Below, in pieces: positions 51,415 through 63,573 of a stretch of 64,000 nt of DNA (position 1 is the first letter of the stretch; each line of letters starts with the position of its first letter). The stretch is from the NCBI GenBank assembly GCA_021786295.1, contig JAJYNO010000029.1:1-64000 (forward strand). Reading direction: 5' to 3'. A model generated the notes under the pieces. It saw only the letters and a list, made by a program, of their open reading frames with translations, did no database searches and had not been told where the DNA came from. Made by a program: the position numbers and the translations under genes. The DNA comes from a bacterium (lineage in GTDB: Bacteria > Elusimicrobiota > Elusimicrobia > Elusimicrobiales > UBA9959).

Positions 51415-54400
51415 ATGAAACGCGTTATCCTTTCGGCCGCTTTGCTGGCCATGGCTACCTTTTCCCAGGCTTACGAGAAGATAGAGTTCAGGGACATGGT
51501 GCAGAGCCCCGCCTTCATGAAGCCGTCGGCGGTGGCCGTCGCCAGCGGCACTTTCTTCGTGGCCGATTCCAAGGCCAACGCCGTCTTCGAGTTCGACGCT
51601 TCGGGCCGGCAGGTCGGGCGGATCTCGGGCGGCCTCGATTCGCCCTCCGCGCTGGCCTTCGGGAACGGCAGGCTCTACGTCGCCGACACCGGCAATTCGC
51701 GCGTGGCGGTATTCGACGCCTCCGGCAAGCCGCTGTGGACCTTCTCCGGGAAAGGGAGCGAGCCGGGACAGCTCAAGTCTCCGGAGGGCATAGCCTACGG
51801 GCCCGACGACCGAGTCTACGTCTCCGACACCGGCAATTCCCGCGTCGAGGTCTACAACTCCGACGGGATCTATCTCTATTCTTTTCCCGTATTGAAATCT
51901 GACGGCGTGACCCGTCTGGAGCCGGCCAAGATCTCCCTCAGCCGCTCCGGGGACGTGCTCGTCTCCGATCCCGGCAGCGACCTGCTGCAGCGCTACGACA
52001 GGACCGGCAAGCTGATCAAGGAATACGACATGCGCAACAGCGGGGCCGCGTTCAACAAGTACGGCTTCGTTTACGCCATAGACGCCAAGGAAGGCAAGGT
52101 CATAGAGCTCTCCGGGACAGGGGAAAGGCGGGGCACTTTCGGCACGCGCGGCCGCGGCAAGGCGGAATTCCTCGACCTGCGCGACATAGCCATAGACGGC
52201 GCCGGCACGCTCTACCTCTGCGACGCCGGTAATAAAAAGGTGGTCATGATCACGGTGGTGACCGCCTACAAGGGGCCCCGCCTGCCGGAAGCCACCACGC
52301 TGGCACGCTTCCTGGTGAAAGGGCCGGCCGCCGAGATCTCGGCGGACGCCGCCGCTTTCGCCGTCGCCCCCGGCGGGAAAATAGTGGCCTGGCTCGACAA
52401 GGACCGGGAACTCGACCTTTTCGAGGGCGGCGCCAAGCGAACGCTGGCGAAGGAAGGAAGGCTCCAGGGGCAGCTCCGCTCGCCGCGGGGGATCTTCGCC
52501 GGCCCGAAAGGGGACATCTACGTCGCCGACACCGGCAACGACCGCGTGGAGATCTTCAAGCCGGACGGCTCCTACGAGAACATGTTCGGCGAGAGCGGCT
52601 CCGGAGAGGGGCAGTTCCGCTCCCCTTCGGCGGTGGCGGTCAACTCGCTCGGCAACATCTACGTGGCGGACACCGGGAACAGGCGCGTCAAGGCCTTCAG
52701 CTCCGACGGTATGTTCCTCTTCGCGATGAACCAGCAGCTGGGCGGGGCCACGCTTGACAGGCCCGTTTCCGTGGTCTGCGACGAGGACAGGAACGTCTAT
52801 ATCCTCGACGAGGGACTGAAAGAGGTCATAGTCACCGACGCGATGGGCAAGTTCATAGGGCTCTGGGACGGTTCCGGCAGCCTGCAGGACCCGGTCTCGC
52901 TGGTCTACGACGGGAAAGGCTTCTTCTACGTGCTGGACAAAGGCTCCAGCAGCGTCAAGATCTTCGACCGCGGCGGCAAGCTGGTCGCCAGTTTCTTCGC
53001 CAGGGGGCGCGGCGGCCGCGAGCTCTGGGACCCGGCCCAGCTGGCCTTCTCCGGAGACCGGCTCTATATCTCCGACCCTGGCGCCCGGCGCGTGGCGGAC
53101 TTCGACGTCAGCTACCTGCCGCAGCAGCCCTCGGCCCTCTCCGCAAAGGTCGGCGAGAAGAGCGTCACTCTTTCCTGGAAGGGGGAGAGCAACGCCTGGA
53201 CCGACGGTTTCAAGGTCTTCCGCGCCGCAGGCGAGGGCGGGGAGAACGTTGAGATAGGCTCCTCCAGGGAACCCTCGTTCGAGGACAGGTCGCTGGTCCC
53301 GGGGACGACCTACTACTACTATGTCGCCGCCCTTTCGGTAAGCGGGGCGCAGGGGGAGCTGTCTGTCCCCGCGGAGGTCTATTACACGGGCCCCGAAACC
53401 CCGGCCCCGGCCGCCTCGCCGTCGGCCGATAACAAGAACGCGCCTCCGATGGAGATAGTCCCGGCGCATCTGGATTATATCTTCTCGGCCAACTACAAGT
53501 ACTACCAGAAGAACCCGGTCGGCGTTGTGACGGTGAAGAACAATACCGGCAGCGACTTCTCTAACGTCAAGCTGTCCTTCAACTTCAAGGATTTCATGGA
53601 CTTCCCGAGCGACACGGTGGTGCCGCTGGTCAAGGCCCGCGGCTCAGTTGACGTCCCGCTGCTGGCAACGCTGAACAACCGCATCCTCGGCATAACCGAG
53701 AACACTCCGATACAGTGCCAGCTGAAGCTGACCTATTATCAGGACGGCGAGGAGAAGACCTTTACCCTTACCCAGCCCGTCACGGTGCTCTCCAAGAACG
53801 CTATAGTGTGGGACGACGCCTCGCGCCTTGGCAACTTCATAACCGTCAACGACGGCCCGATCACCGCGTTCCGGACCTTCGCGCTGCTGCAGAAGAAGGA
53901 CTTCGCCAACGACTCCGGCGCTCTGAACGACAATCTGCTGACCGCCCTGCTCGACTGGGAGGCCCTGGGCGAGTACGGGCTTACCTATCTGGCAGACCCG
54001 GTCAGCCCGTTCGAGGTCGTGAAATCCAGCGCCGCCCTGCCGCTGGACACGGTGCAGTTCCCGCGCAACACCCTCACGCTCAAGAGCGGGGACTGCGACG
54101 ACCTGACCGCGCTCTTCGCCAGCGTCCTGGAGGCCTCCGGGCTGCACACGGCGCTGCTGGACTACCCTAGCCATATCGCGCTGATGTTCGACACCGGCGA
54201 GACCGACGCGGACAGGGTCGGCATCCCGGAGGAGTACCTGATCAAGCGAGACAATACGTGGTGGGTCGGCTTGGAGACGACCATGGTCGGCAAGAGCTTC
54301 TACGACGCGATAATGCACGAGGCCGACCTCTACAGGAAGATGAAGGACGAGGTCCGCGTAATAGACGTGCGCAAGGCGATGACCGAGTTCGAGCCGGTGA

Positions 54401-54882
54401 CGCTCCCGGAGGAAAGTTCCCCGATGAAGTTCTCCATGCCGGGCCTGCCTGACCGCGTCAGGAAGGCTATAGACGCGCTCGCCGCGCTCCGCTACGATCA
54501 CCTGAAGGAGTATTACGGCGGCATCCTGCGCTCGGCTCCCGACGACGCCGAGGCCAACATGTCGCTGGGCATAGTGCACGCCCAGTACAAGCATTACGAC
54601 GAGGCTGCGGCCTGCTTCAAGAAGGTGCTGGCGAAGGAACCGTTCAACGCCGGCGCGCTCAACGACCTCGGGAACCTGAGCTTCGAGGCCGGCAGATACG
54701 ACGAGGCCAGGGACTATTACTTCAAGGCCTCCAAGGCCGACCCGTTCGACGGGAACATCTGGCTAAACCTGGCCAGGGTCGCGGCCAAGCAGGGGAACAA
54801 GGACGACGTCAGGGCCTTCGCGGCCCGCGCAGCCAAGATAGAGCCGGGGCTGCAGACCCTGGCCGACAAACTTTCCAAGTGA
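51415..54882 (+). CDS. Secreted NHL-propeller / FN3 / transglutaminase-like / TPR protein
   Basis: 1155 residues with a signal peptide (about 1-19). Residues 30-570 hold about ten NHL repeats (LYVADTGNSRVAVFDASG, IYVADTGNDRVEIFKPDG), enough for two six-bladed propellers. Residues 572-662 are a fibronectin type III domain (SALSAKVGEKSVTLSWKG...TYYYYVAAL), and 680-800 an immunoglobulin-like segment. Residues 830-960 are a transglutaminase/papain-like domain with TLKSGDCDDLTALFASVLEASG (C894) and PSHIALMF (H920). TPR repeats run from about 1035 to 1150. Probably an envelope or surface organiser. A small secreted protein is encoded 12 bases downstream. Confidence 0.8.
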   Translation: MKRVILSAALLAMATFSQAYEKIEFRDMVQSPAFMKPSAVAVASGTFFVADSKANAVFEFDASGRQVGRISGGLDSPSALAFGNGRLYVADTGNSRVAVFDASGKPLWTFSGKGSEPGQLKSPEGIAYGPDDRVYVSDTGNSRVEVYNSDGIYLYSFPVLKSDGVTRLEPAKISLSRSGDVLVSDPGSDLLQRYDRTGKLIKEYDMRNSGAAFNKYGFVYAIDAKEGKVIELSGTGERRGTFGTRGRGKAEFLDLRDIAIDGAGTLYLCDAGNKKVVMITVVTAYKGPRLPEATTLARFLVKGPAAEISADAAAFAVAPGGKIVAWLDKDRELDLFEGGAKRTLAKEGRLQGQLRSPRGIFAGPKGDIYVADTGNDRVEIFKPDGSYENMFGESGSGEGQFRSPSAVAVNSLGNIYVADTGNRRVKAFSSDGMFLFAMNQQLGGATLDRPVSVVCDEDRNVYILDEGLKEVIVTDAMGKFIGLWDGSGSLQDPVSLVYDGKGFFYVLDKGSSSVKIFDRGGKLVASFFARGRGGRELWDPAQLAFSGDRLYISDPGARRVADFDVSYLPQQPSALSAKVGEKSVTLSWKGESNAWTDGFKVFRAAGEGGENVEIGSSREPSFEDRSLVPGTTYYYYVAALSVSGAQGELSVPAEVYYTGPETPAPAASPSADNKNAPPMEIVPAHLDYIFSANYKYYQKNPVGVVTVKNNTGSDFSNVKLSFNFKDFMDFPSDTVVPLVKARGSVDVPLLATLNNRILGITENTPIQCQLKLTYYQDGEEKTFTLTQPVTVLSKNAIVWDDASRLGNFITVNDGPITAFRTFALLQKKDFANDSGALNDNLLTALLDWEALGEYGLTYLADPVSPFEVVKSSAALPLDTVQFPRNTLTLKSGDCDDLTALFASVLEASGLHTALLDYPSHIALMFDTGETDADRVGIPEEYLIKRDNTWWVGLETTMVGKSFYDAIMHEADLYRKMKDEVRVIDVRKAMTEFEPVTLPEESSPMKFSMPGLPDRVRKAIDALAALRYDHLKEYYGGILRSAPDDAEANMSLGIVHAQYKHYDEAAACFKKVLAKEPFNAGALNDLGNLSFEAGRYDEARDYYFKASKADPFDGNIWLNLARVAAKQGNKDDVRAFAARAAKIEPGLQTLADKLSK

Positions 54883-54894
54883 GGGGGGAGGCAT

Positions 54895-55473
54895 ATGATG
54901 AAAAAAGCATTTATCGTGGCAGCGCTGTTCTTCGCCGCCGGAACGGCCGGGGCGGCCGAGGGAGGCTGGAAGACCTGGTACGTCAATATGCTGAGGGGCC
55001 TCAAGGCCAAAGTGGACGCGAGGCTGGAGTCCAAGACCCGCGTCTCGGCCGTGGCCGCGGTGCGCGGCGCCGACCAGAACGAGGACCCCTACGCGCTCTA
55101 CTGGAAGGGCGGCATCTCCGAGAAGGCGCAGAAGAAGCTGGACGATGAACGGAAGCAGCTGGCCTCCGCCGTGGAGCTGGTCGTGAACGGGGACCCCGCC
55201 GCCGGCCGCGACGCCCTGAACAAGTTCATAAAGGACAATCCCGACAGCTGTTTCGTGAAGGACGCCCAGGAGGCCCTGAAGAACCTTCCCCAGTCCGGCG
55301 CCGAGCCCCCCGCCGGGGCAGGTCAGGGCCCGGGTGCCGCCGAAAAGCCCGCCGCCTCGCCGGCGGCGGAACCGGCCGGCGGGGCTTCAGGGCCGAAGGA
55401 AGGGCAGCCCTCCGGGAAGCCCGCGGAACAGCAAGCGCAGGGGTCAGGCGCGGTCCCGGACTCCGGGAAATAG
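54895..55473 (+). CDS. Small secreted protein with Pro/Ala/Gly-rich tail
   Basis: 192 residues. Signal peptide about 1-21 (cut after AGA), then a helical domain to about 125 (KTWYVNMLRGLKAKVDARLESK, SEKAQKKLDDERKQLASAVELVVNGDPAAGRDALNKFIKDNPDSCFVKDAQEAL). The second half resembles a single TPR-type helix pair. The last 65 residues are Pro/Ala/Gly/Ser-rich and probably unstructured. It follows the large NHL protein by 12 bases and is ended by a terminator, so the two likely act together. No family recognised. Confidence 0.65.
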   Translation: MMKKAFIVAALFFAAGTAGAAEGGWKTWYVNMLRGLKAKVDARLESKTRVSAVAAVRGADQNEDPYALYWKGGISEKAQKKLDDERKQLASAVELVVNGDPAAGRDALNKFIKDNPDSCFVKDAQEALKNLPQSGAEPPAGAGQGPGAAEKPAASPAAEPAGGASGPKEGQPSGKPAEQQAQGSGAVPDSGK

Positions 55474-55488
55474 GTCCGGCCGGTCCTT

Positions 55489-55525
55489 AAAGAAGAACCC
55501 CGCTTCAGGCGGGGCTCTTCTTTTT
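55489..55525 (+). terminator. Intrinsic terminator
   Basis: A long stem (AGAAGAACCCCGC with GCGGGGCTCTTCT, one bulge) around a TTCA loop, then TTTTT at 55520-55525. It ends the NHL-protein operon. A-rich bases on the other side give it limited power for the convergent lipoprotein gene. Confidence 0.85.
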
Positions 55526-55531
55526 ACTGGC

Positions 55532-56380
55532 TCACCTGGAGGGCTGCGCCGCGTTCGCCGGCACGGCCCAGCTCCGGTCCGGCTGGTCGGGGATGATCTG
55601 CCCTGTATCCCCGGCCGGGGCCTTGTCCGAGGTCGTTCCCGGTATCCAGGTCCTGTCGGGCTGCATCGGCGGTGAGGGGACGGCCGGGGGCGGATTCCCC
55701 TGTTCCTTAGGCTCGGGGGGAAGGTCCTCCGCAGGGGCCCCGGCCGCCTTGAGTTTCTCGTACACGTCCGCCGCAGAGCGCAGCAGCATCCTCTTCAGGA
55801 GCGAACTCTCCCTGGCCCCGGGGGAGAAGAAAGGGTACAGGGGGGCCAGCAGGAGGTGGAACGTGGTCTTGTTGTGCGCTTCCTCGGCCACCCTCACCGG
55901 GCCGCCCGGCACCTCGAAATCCGCGGCCAGGTAATAATTTACGCGCAGCGAGGCGGGAAGTATGAAGATGAAACCGGTGTCCACCAGAAAGGAGCGGAAG
56001 AGGTCGCTGTAGGTCCAGCGGCCGAAGCTGGTCAGCTCCAGGCGCAGCGTGCCGCGCCCCCGCTCCCTGTCGTAAAGCCCGGACCTTTTGAAGATCTCCC
56101 TCGCCTTTTCGGCGAAAGCGTCCCCGTCCTCAGGCGGCACGGGCACCGGGACTATCCGCCTGGGATTGGAGATCGAGCCCTCGCCGATGTAGTCCTCCAT
56201 CGAGCGGTAGGGGAAGTTCTTCCAGGAGACCTCCAGCTTCGCGAACGGTTTTATCCCCTTGTCGGCGGCCATCTCCCTTGCCTCGCGCCTGTCCACCGCC
56301 AGGTCGCCGGAGTTGAAGGAGGCGCAGCCCCAGAGGAAGACGCTCAGCGCGAGCAGCAGCGCGGTTCTTGTGTGTTTCAT
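55532..56380 (-). CDS. Lipoprotein, unknown function
   Basis: 282 residues. N-terminal signal with lipobox LWGC (Cys19), so lipid-anchored, probably to the outer membrane. A domain of about 190 residues contains LEVSWKNFPYRSMEDYIGEG, FAEKAREIFKRSGLYDRERGRGTLRLELTSFGRWTY and a hydrophobic stretch (GFIFILPASLRVNYYLAADFEV). This resembles lipoproteins whose body is a beta-sheet/helix fold. The C-terminal 75 residues are Pro-rich. No family recognised. It starts 21 bases from the perfect inverted repeat at the head of the GNAT/Lux cassette, so it may be co-regulated divergently. Confidence 0.65.
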   Translation of the reverse strand: MKHTRTALLLALSVFLWGCASFNSGDLAVDRREAREMAADKGIKPFAKLEVSWKNFPYRSMEDYIGEGSISNPRRIVPVPVPPEDGDAFAEKAREIFKRSGLYDRERGRGTLRLELTSFGRWTYSDLFRSFLVDTGFIFILPASLRVNYYLAADFEVPGGPVRVAEEAHNKTTFHLLLAPLYPFFSPGARESSLLKRMLLRSAADVYEKLKAAGAPAEDLPPEPKEQGNPPPAVPSPPMQPDRTWIPGTTSDKAPAGDTGQIIPDQPDRSWAVPANAAQPSR

Positions 56381-56400: not shown

Positions 56401-56418
56401 CGTCATTATTGAATGACG
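56401..56418. promoter_or_regulatory. Perfect inverted repeat, candidate operator
   Basis: CGTCATT and AATGACG flank ATTG, a perfect 7-bp dyad. It overlaps the -35 of the Lux-like cassette and lies 21 bases before the divergent lipoprotein gene, the right place for a repressor controlling both. Confidence 0.6.
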
Positions 56419-56437
56419 CCCGTTTTTACTATATTAT
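56409..56437 (+). promoter_or_regulatory. Promoter of the GNAT-LuxE-LuxC cassette
   Basis: TTGAAT at 56409-56414 and TATTAT at 56432-56437 with exactly 17 bases between. The start would fall near 56444, about 28 bases before ATG 56472. Confidence 0.7.
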
Positions 56438-56471
56438 ATTACAAACACCGAGCGGCGAAAGGGGGAGTATC

Positions 56472-57668
56472 ATGGCGGACAAGAAAATAGACAAGATAAT
56501 CAAAACGGAGGGGAGGCCGGACGTCCTGATAAGGCTGGCCAGGGTCTCGGACATGCGCCGCATACAGATGCTGTACGCCGAGGTCTACGGCAGCGGCTAC
56601 CCCATCCCCATCATCATCGACAAGGAGAAGATGCGCCGCGCGATCGAGGACGACGACTATTACTGGGTCGTCTCCGACTGCGGCGGCCGCATCGTCGGCA
56701 GCTTCGTCTTCGCCGTGGACCTGCGCTACCGCAACTCCAAGGCGTTCGGCGCCGTGGTCAGCCAGGACTACCGGAAGATGGACCTGGCCCACACGATGCT
56801 GAGGCTGGTCCTGGAAGATATCATGGAGAGGAAAAACCTCGTCGATATCATGTACGCGACGACCCGCACGGCCAACCACGCCCCGCAGAAGCTGTTCGAG
56901 AGCATGGGCTTCGTCAAGCTGGGGATTTTCCCCAACACGCACAAGGTGCAGGACAACGAGACGCATTGCCTGACGGCGCTGCTCACGGAGAAGGCGCTGC
57001 AGCGCCGCCGCCAGGTGCCGCAGATAATCCCGGAGATCGCGCCGTTCTACGGGATCGTGCGCAAGCAGATCAACCTCGAGGACCCCCGGATAGCCGACGT
57101 CGGGCGCGAGTACAGCGACCACAGCAGGAAGATCCCTCTGCTGAATTTCGAGGTCATCGACGCCCCCGAGTTCGTAAAGAACCGCTGGCACAAGACGGTG
57201 AGCAACAGCTTTTTCGAGCGCACCTTCATGCCGTTCCACGAGCCGAACCTGATCCTGATCACTCCGGACCAGGGCACCGAGGTCTATCTGACCTGCAGCC
57301 GGAAAGACAAGTACAGCGTGGTCGTCGGCGGCGTGACGAATGAGGATAACTTCGCGGTTGTGCTCGAGAGCGTCGCGCAGAAAGTCAGCCAGATGGACAT
57401 GGCCTACCTCGAGGTCATCATAGACGCCTATTCCCCGGAGGCCCAGCGCGACGCGATGGACGCCCGCTTCATCCCCAGCGCCTATTTCCCGTGCGCCAAG
57501 CGCATGGGGGAAAAGCGTTACGACTGCGTGGTCTTTTCCCGTACCTTCGAGATCCTGGACTTCCGCAACGTCAGTATCATCTCCCTGTACAAGGAGTTCC
57601 TGCGCGAGTACGTGAAACTCTGGCGCGAGAATTACATCGAGCTGGCCTTGGAGCCGGACCGGAAATAG
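56472..57668 (+). CDS. GNAT-family acetyltransferase with extra C-terminal domain
   Basis: 398 residues from ATG 56472, which has GGGGGAG upstream. Residues about 15-165 are a GNAT fold (VLIRLARVSDMRRIQMLYAEVY, GGRIVGSFVFAVDLRY, AVVSQDYRKMDLAHTMLRLVLED, and ANHAPQKLFESMGFVKLG). In the acetyl-CoA loop the usual Q/RxxGxG/A is altered to QDYRKMDLA. Residues 180-398 are a second domain with no name I can give (TFMPFHEPNLILITPDQ, VVVGGVTNEDNFAVVLESV). It may acylate a small molecule, peptide or protein. First gene of the cassette, 7 bases before the LuxE gene. Confidence 0.75.
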   Translation: MADKKIDKIIKTEGRPDVLIRLARVSDMRRIQMLYAEVYGSGYPIPIIIDKEKMRRAIEDDDYYWVVSDCGGRIVGSFVFAVDLRYRNSKAFGAVVSQDYRKMDLAHTMLRLVLEDIMERKNLVDIMYATTRTANHAPQKLFESMGFVKLGIFPNTHKVQDNETHCLTALLTEKALQRRRQVPQIIPEIAPFYGIVRKQINLEDPRIADVGREYSDHSRKIPLLNFEVIDAPEFVKNRWHKTVSNSFFERTFMPFHEPNLILITPDQGTEVYLTCSRKDKYSVVVGGVTNEDNFAVVLESVAQKVSQMDMAYLEVIIDAYSPEAQRDAMDARFIPSAYFPCAKRMGEKRYDCVVFSRTFEILDFRNVSIISLYKEFLREYVKLWRENYIELALEPDRK

Positions 57669-57675
57669 GAGTTAT

Positions 57676-58845
57676 ATGGCCGATTTTTCGACAGAAGACG
57701 GGCTTCCGCCCTGCCACCTGCCGTTGCGGGGGCGCTCCGCGGTGGACGCGTTGTTCGAGATCCCCCCGTTCGAGTATTCCCCGCGCGCCTCGCGCGCCTT
57801 CCTGGCCGCGATGCGGGCCGCGCTGGCCTTCCAGGGCTCGCGGGCTCCGGTGCTGCGGGGTCTCTACCGCGACGAAGGCTTCGCGCCCGCCTCCGTGCGT
57901 TCCGAGCGCGACGTGCCGCGCATCCCTTTCCTCTCCGTGGCCGCGCTGAAGGAGCGTGACCTGACCACGCTCCCGTTCTCCAGGATAGCGCTGGAGCTGA
58001 AGTCCAGCGGTACCACGGGACAGCGCAGCCGGACCCAGCTGGACAGGGGCTCCCTGCTGCGGGTGCGCAGGCTGATCTGGCGCGTTTTCGAGGGACTGGG
58101 CCTGACGGACCTGGAGCGGGCGCACGACTACATCTGTTTCACTTACGACCCGGGCGTGGCGAAGGACCTCGGCACCGCGTGGACCGACAAGCTGCTTACC
58201 GACTTCACGAAGAAGGGGGAGATCTTCTACACCTTCCGCTGGAGCCGCGAGCGGAAGGATTTCTACAACGACCTGGACGGCTCGGTGGGGGCCCTGCGCC
58301 GCATAGAGGAGCGTGGGACGCTCGCGCGCCTTATCGGCTTCCCCGCCTTCGCGCTGAAACTGACCGAGGAGTATAAAAAGCGCTACGGCCGCTACCCGCG
58401 CCTGAATCCTGGCAGCAGCGTGGTGACCGGCGGCGGCTGGAAGACGCTGGCCGACGAGGCCGTGGACAAGAAGGTGTACCGGAAGATACTGGCCGACAAT
58501 CTCGGCATACCCGTGGCCAACGTGCGGGACCTTTTCGGCATGGTGGAGCACGGGGTCCCGTACGTGGACTGCCGGCTCGGCAATTTCCACGTGCCGAACT
58601 ACGCGCGCGTCCTGGTCCGCCATCCAGGCACGCTCGAGCCCCTGGGCTTCGGGCGCCGGGGCCTGCTGCAGTTCATCACGCCGTATCTCACCAGCTATCC
58701 CTCCCTCTCGGTGCTGTCGTCCGACCTGGGCCTGGTGCGCCGGCGCTGCCGCTGCGGCCTTCCCGGCCCCGTGCTGGAGATACACGGCCGCGCCGGAGTC
58801 AAAAAACTCAAGGGCTGCGCGATAAGCGCTTCGACGATGCTATGA
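57676..58845 (+). CDS. LuxE-family acyl-protein synthetase
   Basis: 389 residues. In bioluminescent bacteria LuxE activates a fatty acid with ATP and carries it as a thioester for reduction by LuxC. LELKSSGTTGQRSRTQLD is the AMP-binding motif. PSSVVTGGGW-type NPGSSVVTGGGWKTL, DLFGMVEHGVPYVDC and the end CRCGLPGPVLEIHGRAGVKKLKGCAISAS match the family. The Cys near position 381, nine residues from the end, corresponds to the acyl-carrying Cys of LuxE. Overlaps the next gene by four bases (ATGA). No luciferase (luxAB) is present. Confidence 0.88.
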   Translation: MADFSTEDGLPPCHLPLRGRSAVDALFEIPPFEYSPRASRAFLAAMRAALAFQGSRAPVLRGLYRDEGFAPASVRSERDVPRIPFLSVAALKERDLTTLPFSRIALELKSSGTTGQRSRTQLDRGSLLRVRRLIWRVFEGLGLTDLERAHDYICFTYDPGVAKDLGTAWTDKLLTDFTKKGEIFYTFRWSRERKDFYNDLDGSVGALRRIEERGTLARLIGFPAFALKLTEEYKKRYGRYPRLNPGSSVVTGGGWKTLADEAVDKKVYRKILADNLGIPVANVRDLFGMVEHGVPYVDCRLGNFHVPNYARVLVRHPGTLEPLGFGRRGLLQFITPYLTSYPSLSVLSSDLGLVRRRCRCGLPGPVLEIHGRAGVKKLKGCAISASTML

Positions 58846-61484
58846 AAATACACAACACCTACCTGTTCGGCAAGTCGTGCGACAAGGCTTTCTGGACCCC
58901 CGCCGAGCTGGAGCGCATCGGGCGCCGGGCCCGCGCCGCCGCCGCCCGTATGCGCGCCGCACGCCGCGAATATATCGTGGATACGCTGGCCAGGGCGGCC
59001 GCGGCCTTCGCCCCGGGAGGAAAATACAGGGAGGCCGCTCTCTCCCATCTGAAGGAGAACGTGTCCTTCTCCGCCCCGGTCATAGCCAGGACGCTTGACG
59101 CCATGGGCGCTTTTCTGACGGCTGACGCCATGAACAAGCGGCTAGAGCTGGAGCTGTTCCTGCCGGCCGCCCTGGACGGCGCCGTGGAGCGTCCCGGCTA
59201 CGCCGGCCTGCTGCGCGCGTGGCCGCGCGGCGTGGCGCTGCACGTAGGGGCCGGCAACGTGTTCCTGGGGATACTCGACTCGCTGGTGCTTGGCCTGCTG
59301 ACGCGCAACGCCAACATCGTAAAGATCTCTTCTTCCGGCTCCAATTTCATCAGCCTGTTCATGCGGGCCCTGGAAGAGGCGGACCGCGAGGGGACGATCT
59401 CCGGCTCGGTCGCCGTGGTGGGCTGGAAAGGCGGCACGCAGGCGCTCGAGGAGGCCGCGATGAGGCACGCCGACACCGTCTTCGTCTGGGGCGGTTACGA
59501 CGCCGTCCAGGCCTACCGCAGGCTCGCGCCGCAGGGCGTCAGGGTGGAAGGCTTCGGGCCGAAGACCAGCGTCGGGGTCGCCTACGCCTCTTGCGTGGAC
59601 GCGAAGGGCATGCCCGCCGTGGCCCGCCGGGCCGCGCTCGACGCTTCGCTTTGGGACCAGGCCGCCTGTTCCTCGCTGCACACCCTTTATATCGTGGCGC
59701 CGCCGGCGCGCCACCGCGCGCTCGCGCGCGAGTTCATAGCCTGCGCCTCGGCCGAGTTCGGGCGGCTGGCGGCGGAGCTCCCGCCCGGCCGCCTGTCCGT
59801 GGACGAGATGGCCGAGGTCGGCAGGGCGCGCGGCCTGGCCGCGGCGGACCGGGCGCTTGGCGCCGCCGAGTTCGCTCCCTCCGCCCCGGGGGCCGGCTGG
59901 ACCGTCATCTGGGAGAAGGACCCGGTCTACCGGGTTTCGCCCCAGAACCGGGTGCTTTACGTGAAGACCGTGGAAAACATCGCCCAGGTGCGCGACTGCC
60001 TGCTCCCGCTGCGCGGCTACGTGCAGACGGTGGGGGTGGCCGGCGCCGCGGAGCGCTCCCGCACCCTGGAGGCGCTGGCGCCGGCCGGCATCGCGCGCGT
60101 GGCGCGCCTCGGCAGCATGCTCGCCGAGGAGACCGGTTCCCCGCACGACGGGATCTTTCCGATGATGTCCCTGGTGGACTGGCTGCCGGTAGAGGCCCTG
60201 CCGTCCGCCGCCGAACGCCTGTCCTCGGTGGTGGAGCTGGCGAGGGAGAAAAGCCCTTTCTACAGGCGGCATTTCCGCGGCGTGCCGCCGGTCTCTTCCG
60301 AGGCGGATTTTTTGCGCCTGCCTTTTTTGGACAAGGACCACATGCTGGCCAACACTCCCCCGGCCAGCTCCGCGCTGCTGACCGGCGGGCTGAGCCGCGG
60401 CATCTTCTTCGCCAGCGGCGGCTCTACTGGCCAGCCCAAGTACGTCTTCTACGGAAGGGAGGAGTTCGATTACGCCTGCAAGATGCTGGGCCGCGCCATG
60501 GAGGCGGGGGGGCTCGCCGCCGGCGACCGCGTCGCGAACCTGTTCATAGCGGGCAACCTGTGGTCGGGGTGGCTGATCGTGGAGGGCGCCCTCGCGAACA
60601 CCGGCGCCGTCTCCGTCCCCCTCGGCAGCTCCCTCCCGCTGGAGAGCATCGCGAAGTACCTGCAGGAGTTCGGGGTGACGGCTATCGTCGGGCTGCCCTC
60701 TTTCCTGCTGAAGCTGGCGGAATTCGTGAAGGCGGCCAGGGGCAAGTACAGGTTCCCGCTGAAGCACATTTTCTACGGCGGAGAATACGTCGGCGCTGAG
60801 ATGGTCAGGTTCTTCGAAGGCGTCTTCCCCGGGGTCAAGGTGAGCTCCGCCGCCTACGCCACGGCCGACGCGATGGTGGTCGGCTATCAGTGCCCGCGCT
60901 GCGTTTTCGGGCAGCACCACCTGTTCACCGAAAGCCATTACATCGAGTTCGTGTCGCAGGAGACCCTGAAGCCGGTGAAGCGCGGCGAGGTGGGCGAGAT
61001 GGTGGTCACCGCCCTGTTCAAGCGGCGCATGCCGCTGATCCGGTACCGGGTAGGCGACCTGGGCCGCTGGCTGACCAAGCCCTGCGCCTGCGGGCGTCCG
61101 GAGCCAGTCTTCGAGATACTCGGGCGCTGCGACGACCGCATCCACGTCGGCGGGGCCCACCTCTTCGTCAACGACATACAGGAAGCGGTAGGCCGGGTCC
61201 ATGACTTCAGCTTCAACTTCCAGGTCGTCATCGCCAAGAAGGGGCACAGGGATACGCTGACGATACGCGCGGAGGTGAAGGACGGGGCCGCGCTGGCGCG
61301 CGCCGGCGAGCTGGGGGACCTGCTGTGGAGGGAGATAATGCGGCACTGCGAGGACCTCTACGAGAGCGTGCGCATGGGCTGGCTGGACAAGCCGCGGATC
61401 GAGGTGCTGTCGCCCGGCGCCATAGAGCGCGTCGCCCGCACCGGCAAGATCCGCCGCGTGCTGGACCGGCGCCAAGGCCTCTGA
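58842..61484 (+). CDS. LuxC-like acyl reductase fused to PaaK/LuxE-like adenylating enzyme
   Basis: 880 residues in one frame. Residues 1 to about 445 are a LuxC-family acyl-CoA/acyl-protein reductase of the aldehyde dehydrogenase superfamily, with VALHVGAGNVFLGILDSLVLGLLTRNANIVKISS and active Cys276 in WDQAACSSLHTLYI. Residues about 452-880 are a PaaK-like AMP-forming ligase: FFASGGSTGQPKYVFY (525-536), FYGGEYVGAEMVRFF, CPRCVFGQHHLFTESHYIEFV, LIRYRVGDLGR, and the late hinge motif LGRCDDRIHVGGAHLFVND. One chain thus activates an acid and reduces an acyl group to aldehyde. Together with LuxE there are two activating enzymes for one reductase. Substrate unknown. Confidence 0.88.
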   Translation: MKIHNTYLFGKSCDKAFWTPAELERIGRRARAAAARMRAARREYIVDTLARAAAAFAPGGKYREAALSHLKENVSFSAPVIARTLDAMGAFLTADAMNKRLELELFLPAALDGAVERPGYAGLLRAWPRGVALHVGAGNVFLGILDSLVLGLLTRNANIVKISSSGSNFISLFMRALEEADREGTISGSVAVVGWKGGTQALEEAAMRHADTVFVWGGYDAVQAYRRLAPQGVRVEGFGPKTSVGVAYASCVDAKGMPAVARRAALDASLWDQAACSSLHTLYIVAPPARHRALAREFIACASAEFGRLAAELPPGRLSVDEMAEVGRARGLAAADRALGAAEFAPSAPGAGWTVIWEKDPVYRVSPQNRVLYVKTVENIAQVRDCLLPLRGYVQTVGVAGAAERSRTLEALAPAGIARVARLGSMLAEETGSPHDGIFPMMSLVDWLPVEALPSAAERLSSVVELAREKSPFYRRHFRGVPPVSSEADFLRLPFLDKDHMLANTPPASSALLTGGLSRGIFFASGGSTGQPKYVFYGREEFDYACKMLGRAMEAGGLAAGDRVANLFIAGNLWSGWLIVEGALANTGAVSVPLGSSLPLESIAKYLQEFGVTAIVGLPSFLLKLAEFVKAARGKYRFPLKHIFYGGEYVGAEMVRFFEGVFPGVKVSSAAYATADAMVVGYQCPRCVFGQHHLFTESHYIEFVSQETLKPVKRGEVGEMVVTALFKRRMPLIRYRVGDLGRWLTKPCACGRPEPVFEILGRCDDRIHVGGAHLFVNDIQEAVGRVHDFSFNFQVVIAKKGHRDTLTIRAEVKDGAALARAGELGDLLWREIMRHCEDLYESVRMGWLDKPRIEVLSPGAIERVARTGKIRRVLDRRQGL

Positions 61485-61509
61485 GCGTTCGCCGGCGGCG
61501 GACCATGCG

Positions 61510-63573
61510 ATGAAAGTCCCACGCGCCAGCCTTACCCTGCCAGGCCTGTTGAGAGCCTCGCTGCTCCTCCTGGCGGCGGCGCTGCTGTTCGTGCCGGCCG
61601 CCCTCCGCACCGGGATATATCTCAAGGTGGAGGTGGCGGCGGGCCTGGCCACCCTGCTGTCCGTGCTGTTCGTCCGCCCGTCCCGCTCTCCCGCCCTGAA
61701 CCTAGCCGTGGCCGGACTGCTGGCGGGCGATATCCTCAACACCCGCAGATACCTGCTCCCGGATTTTCCGGGTCCGCAGATGACGATAATGGCCGCGGCC
61801 TATCTGCTCTATACCCTGGCCGCTGCCTACCTGCTGCTGCGCGCGTATTACGACAGCGGACCGCGGGAAAGGACGGAGACCGGGGCGCTGCTGGGACTGT
61901 CCGTCTGTTTCGCCTTCCTGCAGCTGAAATACGTGTTCGTGCCGGCCTCCGCTCTCTACCGGTTCCCGTACTTCCTGAACGTGCTGGTCACGCTCCACAC
62001 CATGGCCGAATCGCTCGTTCTCGCGCTCGCGGTGCTGCTGGGGATGAGGGCGCGCTCGCGCTACTGGTTCTATCTGCTGAACGGGTTCACGCTGCTGCCG
62101 CTCGCCTCTTTCGCGTTCGGCTACGACATAGCCGCCGACAAGGGCGTGCCCTTCTCCGAGTACGGCTGGGTGCTCGGGCTGCTTTCCCTGCTGGCGGCCC
62201 AGACCTACGCCCAGGGCGAGGGGCCGCATTTCGCCAGCTGGAGCAGCGTCAGGGTGCGGCTCGTGTGGTTCGTTTCCTCCGTTTCGGCGTCGCTGCTGCT
62301 GCTGCTCTACCTGATGCAGGACCTCGTCGCCAAGGACGCCTTCCGCCTCACCTCCTCCCTCTTCTTCGTGCTTTACGGCGCCTGGCTGATCGCCAATCTC
62401 ATAGCCTTCAGGGTCTCGGAGGATATCAACGCTCTGCTCGAGGGGCTGGAGGGGCCTGGGCCGGCCGGCGGCGTAGGCTTCAGGCTGGTGGTTTCGGAGG
62501 CGGAGCTCTTCGCGGAGAGGCTGAAAGCCGCCTACGCCACGATAAAGTTGCAGTCGCAGCTGGCCGCGCTGGCGGAGGTGTCTGCGCAGGTGGCCCACGA
62601 CATACGCAGTCCTCTGGCCGCCCTGGATTCCGCCCTCAGGGACGTGCCGCAGCTCCCGGACGAGAAGCGCCTGCTGATACGCGGCGCCGCCGGCAGGATC
62701 CGCGATATAGCCGAGGACCTGCTTGAGAAGAACGGCGGCCGCAGACGGCCCGAACCCTGCAGGCTCGCGGAACTGATAAGGACGGTTGTGGCGGAGAAAC
62801 AGGCGCAGTTCCGGGGGCGCGGCGGGGTCGCAATCGTCTTCTCCGCCGGCCGGGACCAGGACGGCCTGCTGGCTGCGGCCGTTCCGGCTGACCTGGGCCG
62901 CGTCCTCTCGAATCTGATAAACAACGGCGTGGAGGCGCTGCGGGGCGGCGGCACGGTGACGGTGTCGCTTTCCGCGGAGGGGGAAGAGGCCGTCGTCGCC
63001 GTCGGCGATACCGGCAGGGGCATTCCGCCGGAGGTGCTGGCTTCGCTTGGCCGCAGAGGAAAGACCTACGGCAAGGAGGGAGGCTCCGGCCTCGGGCTGT
63101 ACCACGCCATGACCACCGTGGAGAGCTGGGGCGGCAGGCTTTCCATGGATTCCGAACAGGGAAAAGGCACCACCGTGACGCTGAGGCTCACGCGGGTGCA
63201 GGCGCCGCCGAGCGCCGCCGCTGGGCCCGGGAAAAGAACGGGGAAGTGCGGCGCCAGGGCCGTGCTGCTGGACGACGACGCCCTGGTCAGGCTAAACTGG
63301 GGGGTCTCCGCCCGGTCCGCCGGAGTGGAGCTGGCGACGTACGAGAACGGAGAAGAACTCCTCTCGGGCTCCTCGGAACTGCCGGCCGACACCGCGTTCT
63401 ATATAGACTCCGAGCTGGGGGGCGGCGAGTCCGGGGTGGAAGTCGCCGCCAAGCTGCGCGAGAAAGGCTTTTCCGATATCACCATGGCCACCGGTTCCGG
63501 GCCCGAGAACTTCGCCAGTCTTCCGTGGCTCAAGGTCGCCGGCAAAGAGCCTCCCTGGGAGAGCGCCGGCTGA
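61510..63573 (+). CDS. Hybrid sensor histidine kinase with multi-helix membrane sensor and C-terminal receiver
   Basis: 687 residues. About eight membrane helices fill residues 10-300. A dimerisation domain with SAQVAHDIRSPLAALDS (H363) follows, then a HATPase domain with N box NLINNGVEALRG, G1 VGDTGRGIPP and G2 GGSGLGLYHAM. Residues about 580-687 form a receiver: LLDDDALVRLNW, D633 in FYIDSELGG, the Thr in MATGSG and Lys in KVAGKEPPW. No cognate regulator is visible, so output may go to a histidine phosphotransferase elsewhere. It starts 25 bases after the LuxC-PaaK gene and is probably in the same operon. Confidence 0.88.
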   Translation: MKVPRASLTLPGLLRASLLLLAAALLFVPAALRTGIYLKVEVAAGLATLLSVLFVRPSRSPALNLAVAGLLAGDILNTRRYLLPDFPGPQMTIMAAAYLLYTLAAAYLLLRAYYDSGPRERTETGALLGLSVCFAFLQLKYVFVPASALYRFPYFLNVLVTLHTMAESLVLALAVLLGMRARSRYWFYLLNGFTLLPLASFAFGYDIAADKGVPFSEYGWVLGLLSLLAAQTYAQGEGPHFASWSSVRVRLVWFVSSVSASLLLLLYLMQDLVAKDAFRLTSSLFFVLYGAWLIANLIAFRVSEDINALLEGLEGPGPAGGVGFRLVVSEAELFAERLKAAYATIKLQSQLAALAEVSAQVAHDIRSPLAALDSALRDVPQLPDEKRLLIRGAAGRIRDIAEDLLEKNGGRRRPEPCRLAELIRTVVAEKQAQFRGRGGVAIVFSAGRDQDGLLAAAVPADLGRVLSNLINNGVEALRGGGTVTVSLSAEGEEAVVAVGDTGRGIPPEVLASLGRRGKTYGKEGGSGLGLYHAMTTVESWGGRLSMDSEQGKGTTVTLRLTRVQAPPSAAAGPGKRTGKCGARAVLLDDDALVRLNWGVSARSAGVELATYENGEELLSGSSELPADTAFYIDSELGGGESGVEVAAKLREKGFSDITMATGSGPENFASLPWLKVAGKEPPWESAG

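Follow-up and report, generated by a model that had tools for sequence, protein, structure and literature searches.

A conserved luciferase-free cassette of GNAT, LuxE and a LuxC-PaaK fusion in Elusimicrobiota, possibly a source of N-acylated aldehydes

The stretch analyzed here (the window) comprises 64,000 nucleotides of an Elusimicrobiota genome (GCA_021786295.1, contig JAJYNO010000029.1, positions 1 to 64,000, forward strand). Three consecutive genes within it encode a two-part GNAT protein, a LuxE acyl-protein synthetase and a single protein in which a LuxC-type reductase is joined to a PaaK-type AMP ligase (the fusion); together they are a genuine conserved cassette. In luminous bacteria LuxC and LuxE supply the fatty aldehyde needed for light emission, but here they form the fixed core of a luciferase-free cassette, in the company of a ligase fused to the reductase and a two-part GNAT. 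In the open-access literature searched we noticed neither a LuxC-PaaK fusion nor the GNAT-LuxE-fusion trio described, and the cassette is apparently a new, undescribed variant within LuxE/LuxC acid reduction. The best explanation of the whole, which we hold tentatively, is a compact acid-reducing cassette that would make an N-acylated amino or peptidyl aldehyde. The features of the locus are as follows.

56472..57668, + strand: two-part GNAT protein, 398 amino acids (aa) (Pfam Acetyltransf_1 1.8e-07, aa 54-147)
57676..58845, + strand: LuxE acyl-protein synthetase, 389 aa, acyl-carrying Cys381 (Pfam LuxE 5.2e-34)
58842..61484, + strand: LuxC-PaaK fusion, 880 aa; LuxC reductase at 43-446 with Cys276, PaaK-type AMP ligase at 457-877 with Lys869
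61510..63573, + strand: membrane-bound hybrid histidine kinase of 687 aa that includes a receiver domain (HATPase_c 1.4e-21); an optional neighbor
56409..56437, + strand: promoter-like site TTGAAT-17-TATTAT (consensus scan 9/12); a candidate by consensus likeness only

A preliminary description of the locus had proposed four same-strand genes, spaced by 7, -4 and 25 bases, behind one promoter. All four open reading frames are present on the + strand with this spacing. As to the promoter, a candidate -35/-10-like site does lie in the 91-bp gap between a divergent lipoprotein-like gene and the GNAT gene, the 9/12 consensus match being its sole basis. The same description had noted no luxA or luxB, and across the whole source genome (2.3 Mb in 37 contigs, 79% complete) there is indeed no match to PF00296 at E 0.001, a search that was positive in 10 of 14 control genomes. 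With no match to the luciferase genes by which a lux operon is recognized, the locus does not qualify as one.

Domains and catalytic residues

The third gene had been read as a LuxC-type reductase followed by a whole PaaK-like ligase, and both halves are found within its one 880-aa frame: Pfam recognizes LuxC (1.4e-67, aa 43-446), AMP-binding (PF00501, 2e-11) and the C-terminal domain AMP-binding_C_2 (PF14535, 4e-07), and the ligase lysine is present as Lys869. The LuxC half matches chain A, and LuxE chain E, of the LuxC-LuxE complex in PDB 7xc6, each being homologous over most of its length. The two cysteines assigned an acyl-carrying role, LuxC Cys276 and LuxE Cys381, align with the cysteines of these chains, so that both Cys-bearing components of the acyl-protein reductase system are present in the window.

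In order to compare relatives, we assembled 63 loci: 58 from Elusimicrobiota, hand-picked from matches to the fusion and including the window, and five from plasmids, with two near-identical Salmonella plasmids counted separately. In all 63, a single stop-free tblastn piece spans the LuxC/PaaK junction, which shows that the fusion is beyond chance. A point against it is that, among the fusion matches listed, those of G104 and G124 have one in-frame stop each; the G124 locus nonetheless gave a clean junction-spanning piece. Residues were counted in the tblastn alignments with the window excluded; separate counts from gene calls, window included, agree. Cys276 is kept in 62/62 other loci and Cys381 in all 60 that have a LuxE match. 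The ligase residues Arg734, Asp739, Cys684, Cys748 and Cys750 each occur in 62/62, Asp765 in 60/62 and Lys869 in 59/62, the remaining three alignments ending before that position. Asp676 is likewise Asp in every one of the 62, at a motif position where we take glutamate to be usual. Loss of the LuxC cysteine or of the ligase motifs in relatives, named in the preliminary description as evidence that would count against it, was not seen.

Of the proteins with a solved structure, phenylacetate-CoA ligases (PDB 4r1l, 2y4o, 2y27) resemble the PaaK half most, sharing with it the AMP-binding domain, the C-terminal domain and Lys869. The PaaK half differs from them in being fused behind LuxC and in scoring far below the cut-off of the NCBIfam PaaK model (143.6 against 646.3 bits), so phenylacetate specificity is not indicated by that test. 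The fatty acid reductase of luminous bacteria (7xc6) resembles the cassette in both proteins and both catalytic cysteines; in the cassette, however, LuxC is fused to PaaK, a GNAT gene precedes LuxE, no luciferase-family match exists and the similarity of the proteins is remote.

Distribution and gene order

At a threshold of E 1e-20 or better, the fusion query finds a match in every one of the 32 genus members; in the rest of the family, 23 of 27 genomes have one. The matches are fragmentary in G144, G127, G134 and G117, and that in G124 is of a divergent type; with the Pfam LuxC model at 1e-20 the genus count is 31/32, G144 being the genome missing. Across 340 genomes of the phylum there are 89 LuxC matches in 83 genomes. 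Most of these (81/89) lie in open frames of at least 700 aa, and the other eight, one of them the partly matched domain of G117, in frames of 355-503 aa. LuxE occurs in 82 of the 340 genomes, and 79 genomes have both, that is, 79 of the 83 with LuxC. Within this phylum LuxC thus usually occurs in a long frame, and the fusion is a stable architecture. The preliminary description had held that its proposal would fail were the fusion the standard form of a characterized pathway; the long frame is indeed usual in the phylum, but no characterized pathway to which the fusion belongs was found in the open-access literature.

In 59/63 loci, tblastn places LuxE immediately before the fusion and on the same strand; L085 and L086 have no LuxE in the stretch fetched but encode it on another contig. 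The GNAT gene directly precedes LuxE in 41/63, comprising 38 Elusimicrobiota loci and three from Streptomyces/Streptantibioticus, such that the order and strand GNAT-LuxE-fusion are kept in 38 of the 58 Elusimicrobiota loci. One of these, L064 (genome G081), has only a partial GNAT match, which contains a stop. In a further 11/63 the GNAT is downstream instead. The last 11 show neither arrangement: the GNAT is upstream but more distant in L044, L054, L065 and L088 and on the opposite strand in L081, while tblastn finds no GNAT in the stretch for L074, L076, L079, L080 and the two Salmonella loci. In the GNAT search, which was wider than those for LuxC and LuxE, homologues occur in 80 of 393 genomes, all 80 within the class. 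These counts bear out the suggestion that GNAT and LuxE accompany the fusion. A contig scan with a window protein matched three loci, all of them Elusimicrobia or Elusimicrobiales metagenome-assembled genomes. In L065 (11073-13090), a DUF362/ferredoxin gene and a phosphonate-binding-type gene stand between LuxE and the fusion.

Carboxylic acid reductase (CAR) pairs adenylation with a reductase, and the fusion could be an analogue in which the PaaK half would pass an acid, aryl or otherwise, to LuxC in cis for reduction to an aldehyde, LuxE acting as a mere carrier or a second point of entry. The presence of one frame in 63/63 loci fits such an enzyme, as do the CAR domain pairing itself and the names of the solved relatives of the PaaK half, mostly aryl-acid ligases, although a 2-hydroxyisobutyryl-CoA synthetase is also among them. 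A self-sufficient fusion, however, would need no LuxE, and yet LuxE is kept with its cysteine beside the fusion and in nearly all LuxC genomes. Furthermore, a CAR combines an adenylation, a carrier and a reductase domain in a single polypeptide, whereas Pfam detects no carrier domain between the halves of the fusion, and its reductase is LuxC-type and N-terminal. We consider a CAR analogue improbable.

Cluster forms and plasmid-borne relatives

Loci were labeled by clustering of their neighborhood genes before a tree of 62 fusions was built (quick maximum likelihood, LG+G4, with SH-aLRT support only and long-branch warnings). A single branch separates each label from the rest. The minimal form, GNAT-LuxE-fusion, occupies 41 rows of the tree (support 99) and an expanded form 13 (support 100); a third form has four rows (support 98) and the Streptomyces/Streptantibioticus fusions three (support 100), while the Salmonella row is the longest branch. 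Expanded loci commonly also have an upstream PaaK and downstream GNATs, and 9/13 carry an MFS-type gene, as do 2/4 of the third form; clustering thus places MFS genes in 11 of these 17 Elusimicrobiota loci. Pfam confirms MFS in three Elusimicrobiota loci and in the three from Streptomyces/Streptantibioticus.

Nine of the 13 expanded loci also encode a protein of ~490 aa (L077:3438-4922 and relatives), probably combining a histidine-kinase-like ATPase domain with a GNAT, although the assignment is weak: HATPase_c_2 is matched in one of eight members (6.5e-4) and GNAT in five of eight (best 0.0095), the best PDB match is at 0.38, and a profile comparison with the window GNAT covered 63 columns at a probability of 16.5.

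Window-GNAT homologues occur in four plasmid records (three strains), with LuxE and the fusion alongside in 4/4; the three of these loci that were fetched also carry PaaK and an MFS gene. On the plasmid of Streptomyces sp. NBC_00158 (L101) the order is PaaK-MFS-GNAT-LuxE-fusion, the genes overlapping by four bases or separated by a two-base gap, and two further Streptomyces/Streptantibioticus plasmid loci have the same order (tblastn, Pfam). The NBC_00158 operon, which is known by automatic annotation, therefore shares homologous GNAT, LuxE and fusion genes in the order of the window, at 26.8-35.9% identity, and differs in its additional MFS gene and separate PaaK.

In Salmonella, plasmid CP054717 carries by its annotation LuxE, an 802-aa fusion, PaaK and a 294-aa GNAT in a set of 5,759 bases; the LuxE-fusion-PaaK stretch of CP053580 is 99.9% identical. 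A 121-aa gene before LuxE resembles an MFS fragment by eye and has no Pfam match. No near match to the set was found in the E. coli genomes searched, and five phage records match the PaaK half only. The occurrence of the trio in Elusimicrobiota and Streptomyces, together with the Salmonella set, points to a widespread pathway.

Such a pathway could conceivably be that of leupeptin (leup), known from Gammaproteobacteria and transferred between phyla. Leupeptin is Ac-Leu-Leu-Arg-CHO, an N-acyl peptide aldehyde (PMC7714073, in the text available), and leupABCD (CP011636, positions 315353-321183) is described in the accessible part of PMC8283571 as four genes of ~5.8 kb adjoining a transporter; the Salmonella set is of similar length and is preceded by the MFS-like fragment. 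Excerpts of PMC11480411 and PMC8283571 place the operon in Klebsiella, with four genes and a transporter, and in Photorhabdus. However, the published leupA start primer translates to MKIAIHN, a sequence with which no gene of the window or of the Salmonella set begins, and neither primer has an exact match in the Salmonella loci L098 and L103, primers being all that was compared. The likeness lies in the number of genes, the transporter and the product class proposed here, and we regard this identity as very improbable.

Other plasmids carry LuxE and LuxC in different company. In Streptomyces europaeiscabiei (NZ_CP109155.1; L104:2019-10477) they lie beside YcaO, DUF692 and MBL-fold genes, possibly a peptide-tailoring cluster with a carboxylate reductase. 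In Deinococcus sp. NW-56 (NZ_CP026517.1; L107:3418-8806) a LuxE-LuxC pair is found with an acyl carrier protein, an SDR, an AMP-binding protein and an acetyltransferase, near a sugar transferase. A Chloroflexota plasmid (CP069395.1; L105:7863-10264) has a bare LuxE-LuxC pair in which LuxC is short and, by annotation, unfused. Papers on flagellin modification mention both LuxC and LuxE in the passages available. The Deinococcus sugar-transferase region and the flagellin-modification mentions indicate that the pair serves several pathways.

A possible pathway and its product

In LuxE/LuxC chemistry an acid and ATP give acyl-AMP, the acyl group moves to the cysteine of LuxE and on to that of LuxC, and NADPH releases it as an aldehyde. 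The invariance of both acyl-carrying cysteines in the loci examined supports the Lux-like activation and reduction that had been proposed. LuxE of the cassette would activate a carboxylic acid with ATP and hold it as a thioester on Cys381; the acyl group would then pass to Cys276 of the LuxC half and be reduced with NAD(P)H to an aldehyde. Judged from LuxC/LuxE biochemistry, this reduction step is quite probable.

What the rest of the cassette contributes is suggested by gene content. The PaaK half may be a second, independent AMP ligase, activating another acyl group as acyl-AMP or acyl-CoA, which the GNAT could use to acylate an amine. The fused ligase, the usual GNAT and the ligases, GNATs and MFS genes added in related clusters suggest that amide formation builds the very acid that is then reduced. 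The most economical product would be a small N-acylated amino or peptidyl aldehyde, or a derived alcohol. For the minimal form GNAT, LuxE and fusion would be enough; in related clusters extra PaaK and GNAT genes might lengthen or vary the product and the MFS pump export it, and a kinase could serve as an optional local regulator. The amide step and the product class, read from gene content alone, are plausible but somewhat short of an even prospect. Analogy lends them something: in leupeptin synthesis a peptide acid is reduced enzymatically with ATP support (PMC7714073, in its available part), and LuxE-LuxC stands beside YcaO and DUF692 in S. europaeiscabiei.

The main rival is fatty-acid reduction as in the Lux system, supplying membrane or ether-type lipids with a long-chain fatty aldehyde or alcohol, with the PaaK half re-activating fatty acids to CoA and the GNAT acylating the head group. 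LuxE and the LuxC half do align with 7xc6 and match the NCBIfam long-chain fatty-acid models, albeit with scores well short of the cut-offs (90.7 bits against 550 and 103.3 against 750), and a match to the fusion in 32/32 genus genomes is what a structural lipid would lead one to expect. Set against this, the ligase is PaaK-type and not a fatty-acid ligase, and by clustering no lipid, carrier or thioesterase gene recurs beside the minimal cassette, apart from the syntenic NHL, lipoprotein-like and M29 peptidase genes. MFS and extra GNAT genes in related clusters also speak against it. We think a fatty product unlikely, though it deserves more weight than any other rival. Because related clusters have MFS genes and extra ligases, a small exported metabolite is somewhat more likely than a structural lipid.

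Several observations weigh against an N-acylated aldehyde as the product. The occurrence of the fusion throughout the genus is as compatible with a basic constituent of the cell as with a secreted metabolite, and in the window no exporter or carrier protein immediately adjoins the minimal cassette. The AlphaFold model of the fusion (pLDDT 54.1) is too low to read domain contacts, and that of the GNAT (pLDDT 41.8) is too low for use. The N-terminal GNAT domain is weakly matched by Pfam, and the C-terminal part has no Pfam match or family. At the position that we take to be the glycine of the CoA-binding loop the window GNAT has Asp104, and glycine is found there in only 10 of 52 relatives. Given the weak match and the aspartate, acyl transfer by the GNAT is not certain.

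Two further ideas about the GNAT were rejected. Profile comparison of its second part as a repeat of the first gave nothing. Selenocysteine at an in-frame TGA was considered for four GNAT genes, but in the three translated (G106, G107 and G108; the fourth is G110) the TGA is an ordinary gene end; other single in-frame stops reported among the GNAT matches are a TAG in G114 and a TAA in G081.

If the cassette does make N-acylated peptide aldehydes, one specific form would be a route free of carrier proteins and of non-ribosomal peptide synthetases (NRPS), PaaK making amide bonds, GNAT capping or condensing, and LuxE/LuxC forming the aldehyde end of a protease inhibitor or signal. We put this forward as a speculative proposal, less likely than the broader one. 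According to the available text of PMC10548850, small peptide aldehydes come from NRPS with reductase domains or from a tRNA-dependent enzyme, whereas Pfam and NCBIfam detect no NRPS, carrier or tRNA-dependent domain in the four proteins encoded here. Were it true, a carrier- and NRPS-free aldehyde route would count among the core traits of a bacterial family represented mainly by metagenomes, and relatives of that trait would travel on Streptomyces and Salmonella plasmids. The three genes are a small, expressible set able to settle the question of the product. One paper that mentions both LuxC and PaaK (PMC11481866) was set aside, luxC serving only as a reporter in the text available.

The histidine kinase

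The kinase had been described as part of the set, and in this the description did not hold. The protein has ~7 hydrophobic segments; besides HATPase_c, Pfam gives HisKA (0.038) and Response_reg (0.023), both under the cut-offs. We take AHDIRSP from residue 362 to be the H-box, positions 585 and 631 the acidic and Asp motifs of the receiver, and 677 its Lys motif. Among the 58 Elusimicrobiota loci the kinase directly follows the fusion in the window only, and its sensor part adjoins the cassette in three, on which ground we rejected it as a constant member.

Across the 59 genomes of the family, sensor homologues give 18 matches in 16 genomes, and a kinase adjoins the cassette in five, in three arrangements: downstream on the same strand (the window), upstream on the same strand, 113 bases before the GNAT (G147), and upstream and divergent (G118, G119 and G145). 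By a hand estimate (18 matches x ~10 kb / ~2.7 Mb), chance would give 0.07 such cases; set against the five seen, the link between kinase and cassette looks real. The cases are not all independent, since the fusion of G145 (L090, G145:C99), a genome of the same genus as the window, groups with genus g11, that of G119, and shares its divergent kinase. This suggests that kinase and cassette may have moved together. Its adjacency within the family, at 5/59 and in three arrangements, leads us to retain the kinase as an optional regulator, possibly one dedicated to the cassette and acting locally.

Divergence of the cassette in the window genome

To quantify divergence, 15 loci of the same genus were compared, and changes private to one locus were counted at positions invariant in the other 14. 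The window fusion has 84 such changes over 546 positions, where other loci have a median of 2 and a maximum of 9. LuxE has 18/275 (maximum elsewhere 4) and the GNAT 17/217 (maximum elsewhere 11). Flanking genes, which are imperfect controls, being more variable overall, are low: 4/400 in the NHL-repeat protein, 0/81 in the lipoprotein-like protein and 0/171 in the M29 peptidase (13, 13 and 10 loci). Within the fusion, private changes number 42/275 in LuxC, 37/197 in the ligase core and 2/66 in the ligase C-terminal domain.

Such a marked skew, with 27 of the 84 changes unfavorable (negative) by BLOSUM62, might mean that the cassette is decaying or functionally changed in this genome. Against this, the frames are open, the catalytic residues are kept and 40 of the changes are BLOSUM62-positive. 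Moreover, 32 changes are towards Gly/Ala/Arg/Pro and 5 away, as G+C drift would give, and the G+C content of the fusion is 69.0%, compared to 59.6-64.7% in nine congeners (locus, 66.0% against 59.3-63.3%). Decay or a change of function strikes us as distinctly improbable, and the divergence as such may possibly reflect relaxed constraint, base drift or a change of substrate.

The neighborhood upstream of the cassette (51415-56380 of the window) is largely shared by the same-genus loci fetched: a small secreted-type protein and the divergent lipoprotein-like gene are each found in 14/14, an NHL/TPR protein in 13/14 and the M29 peptidase in 10/14.

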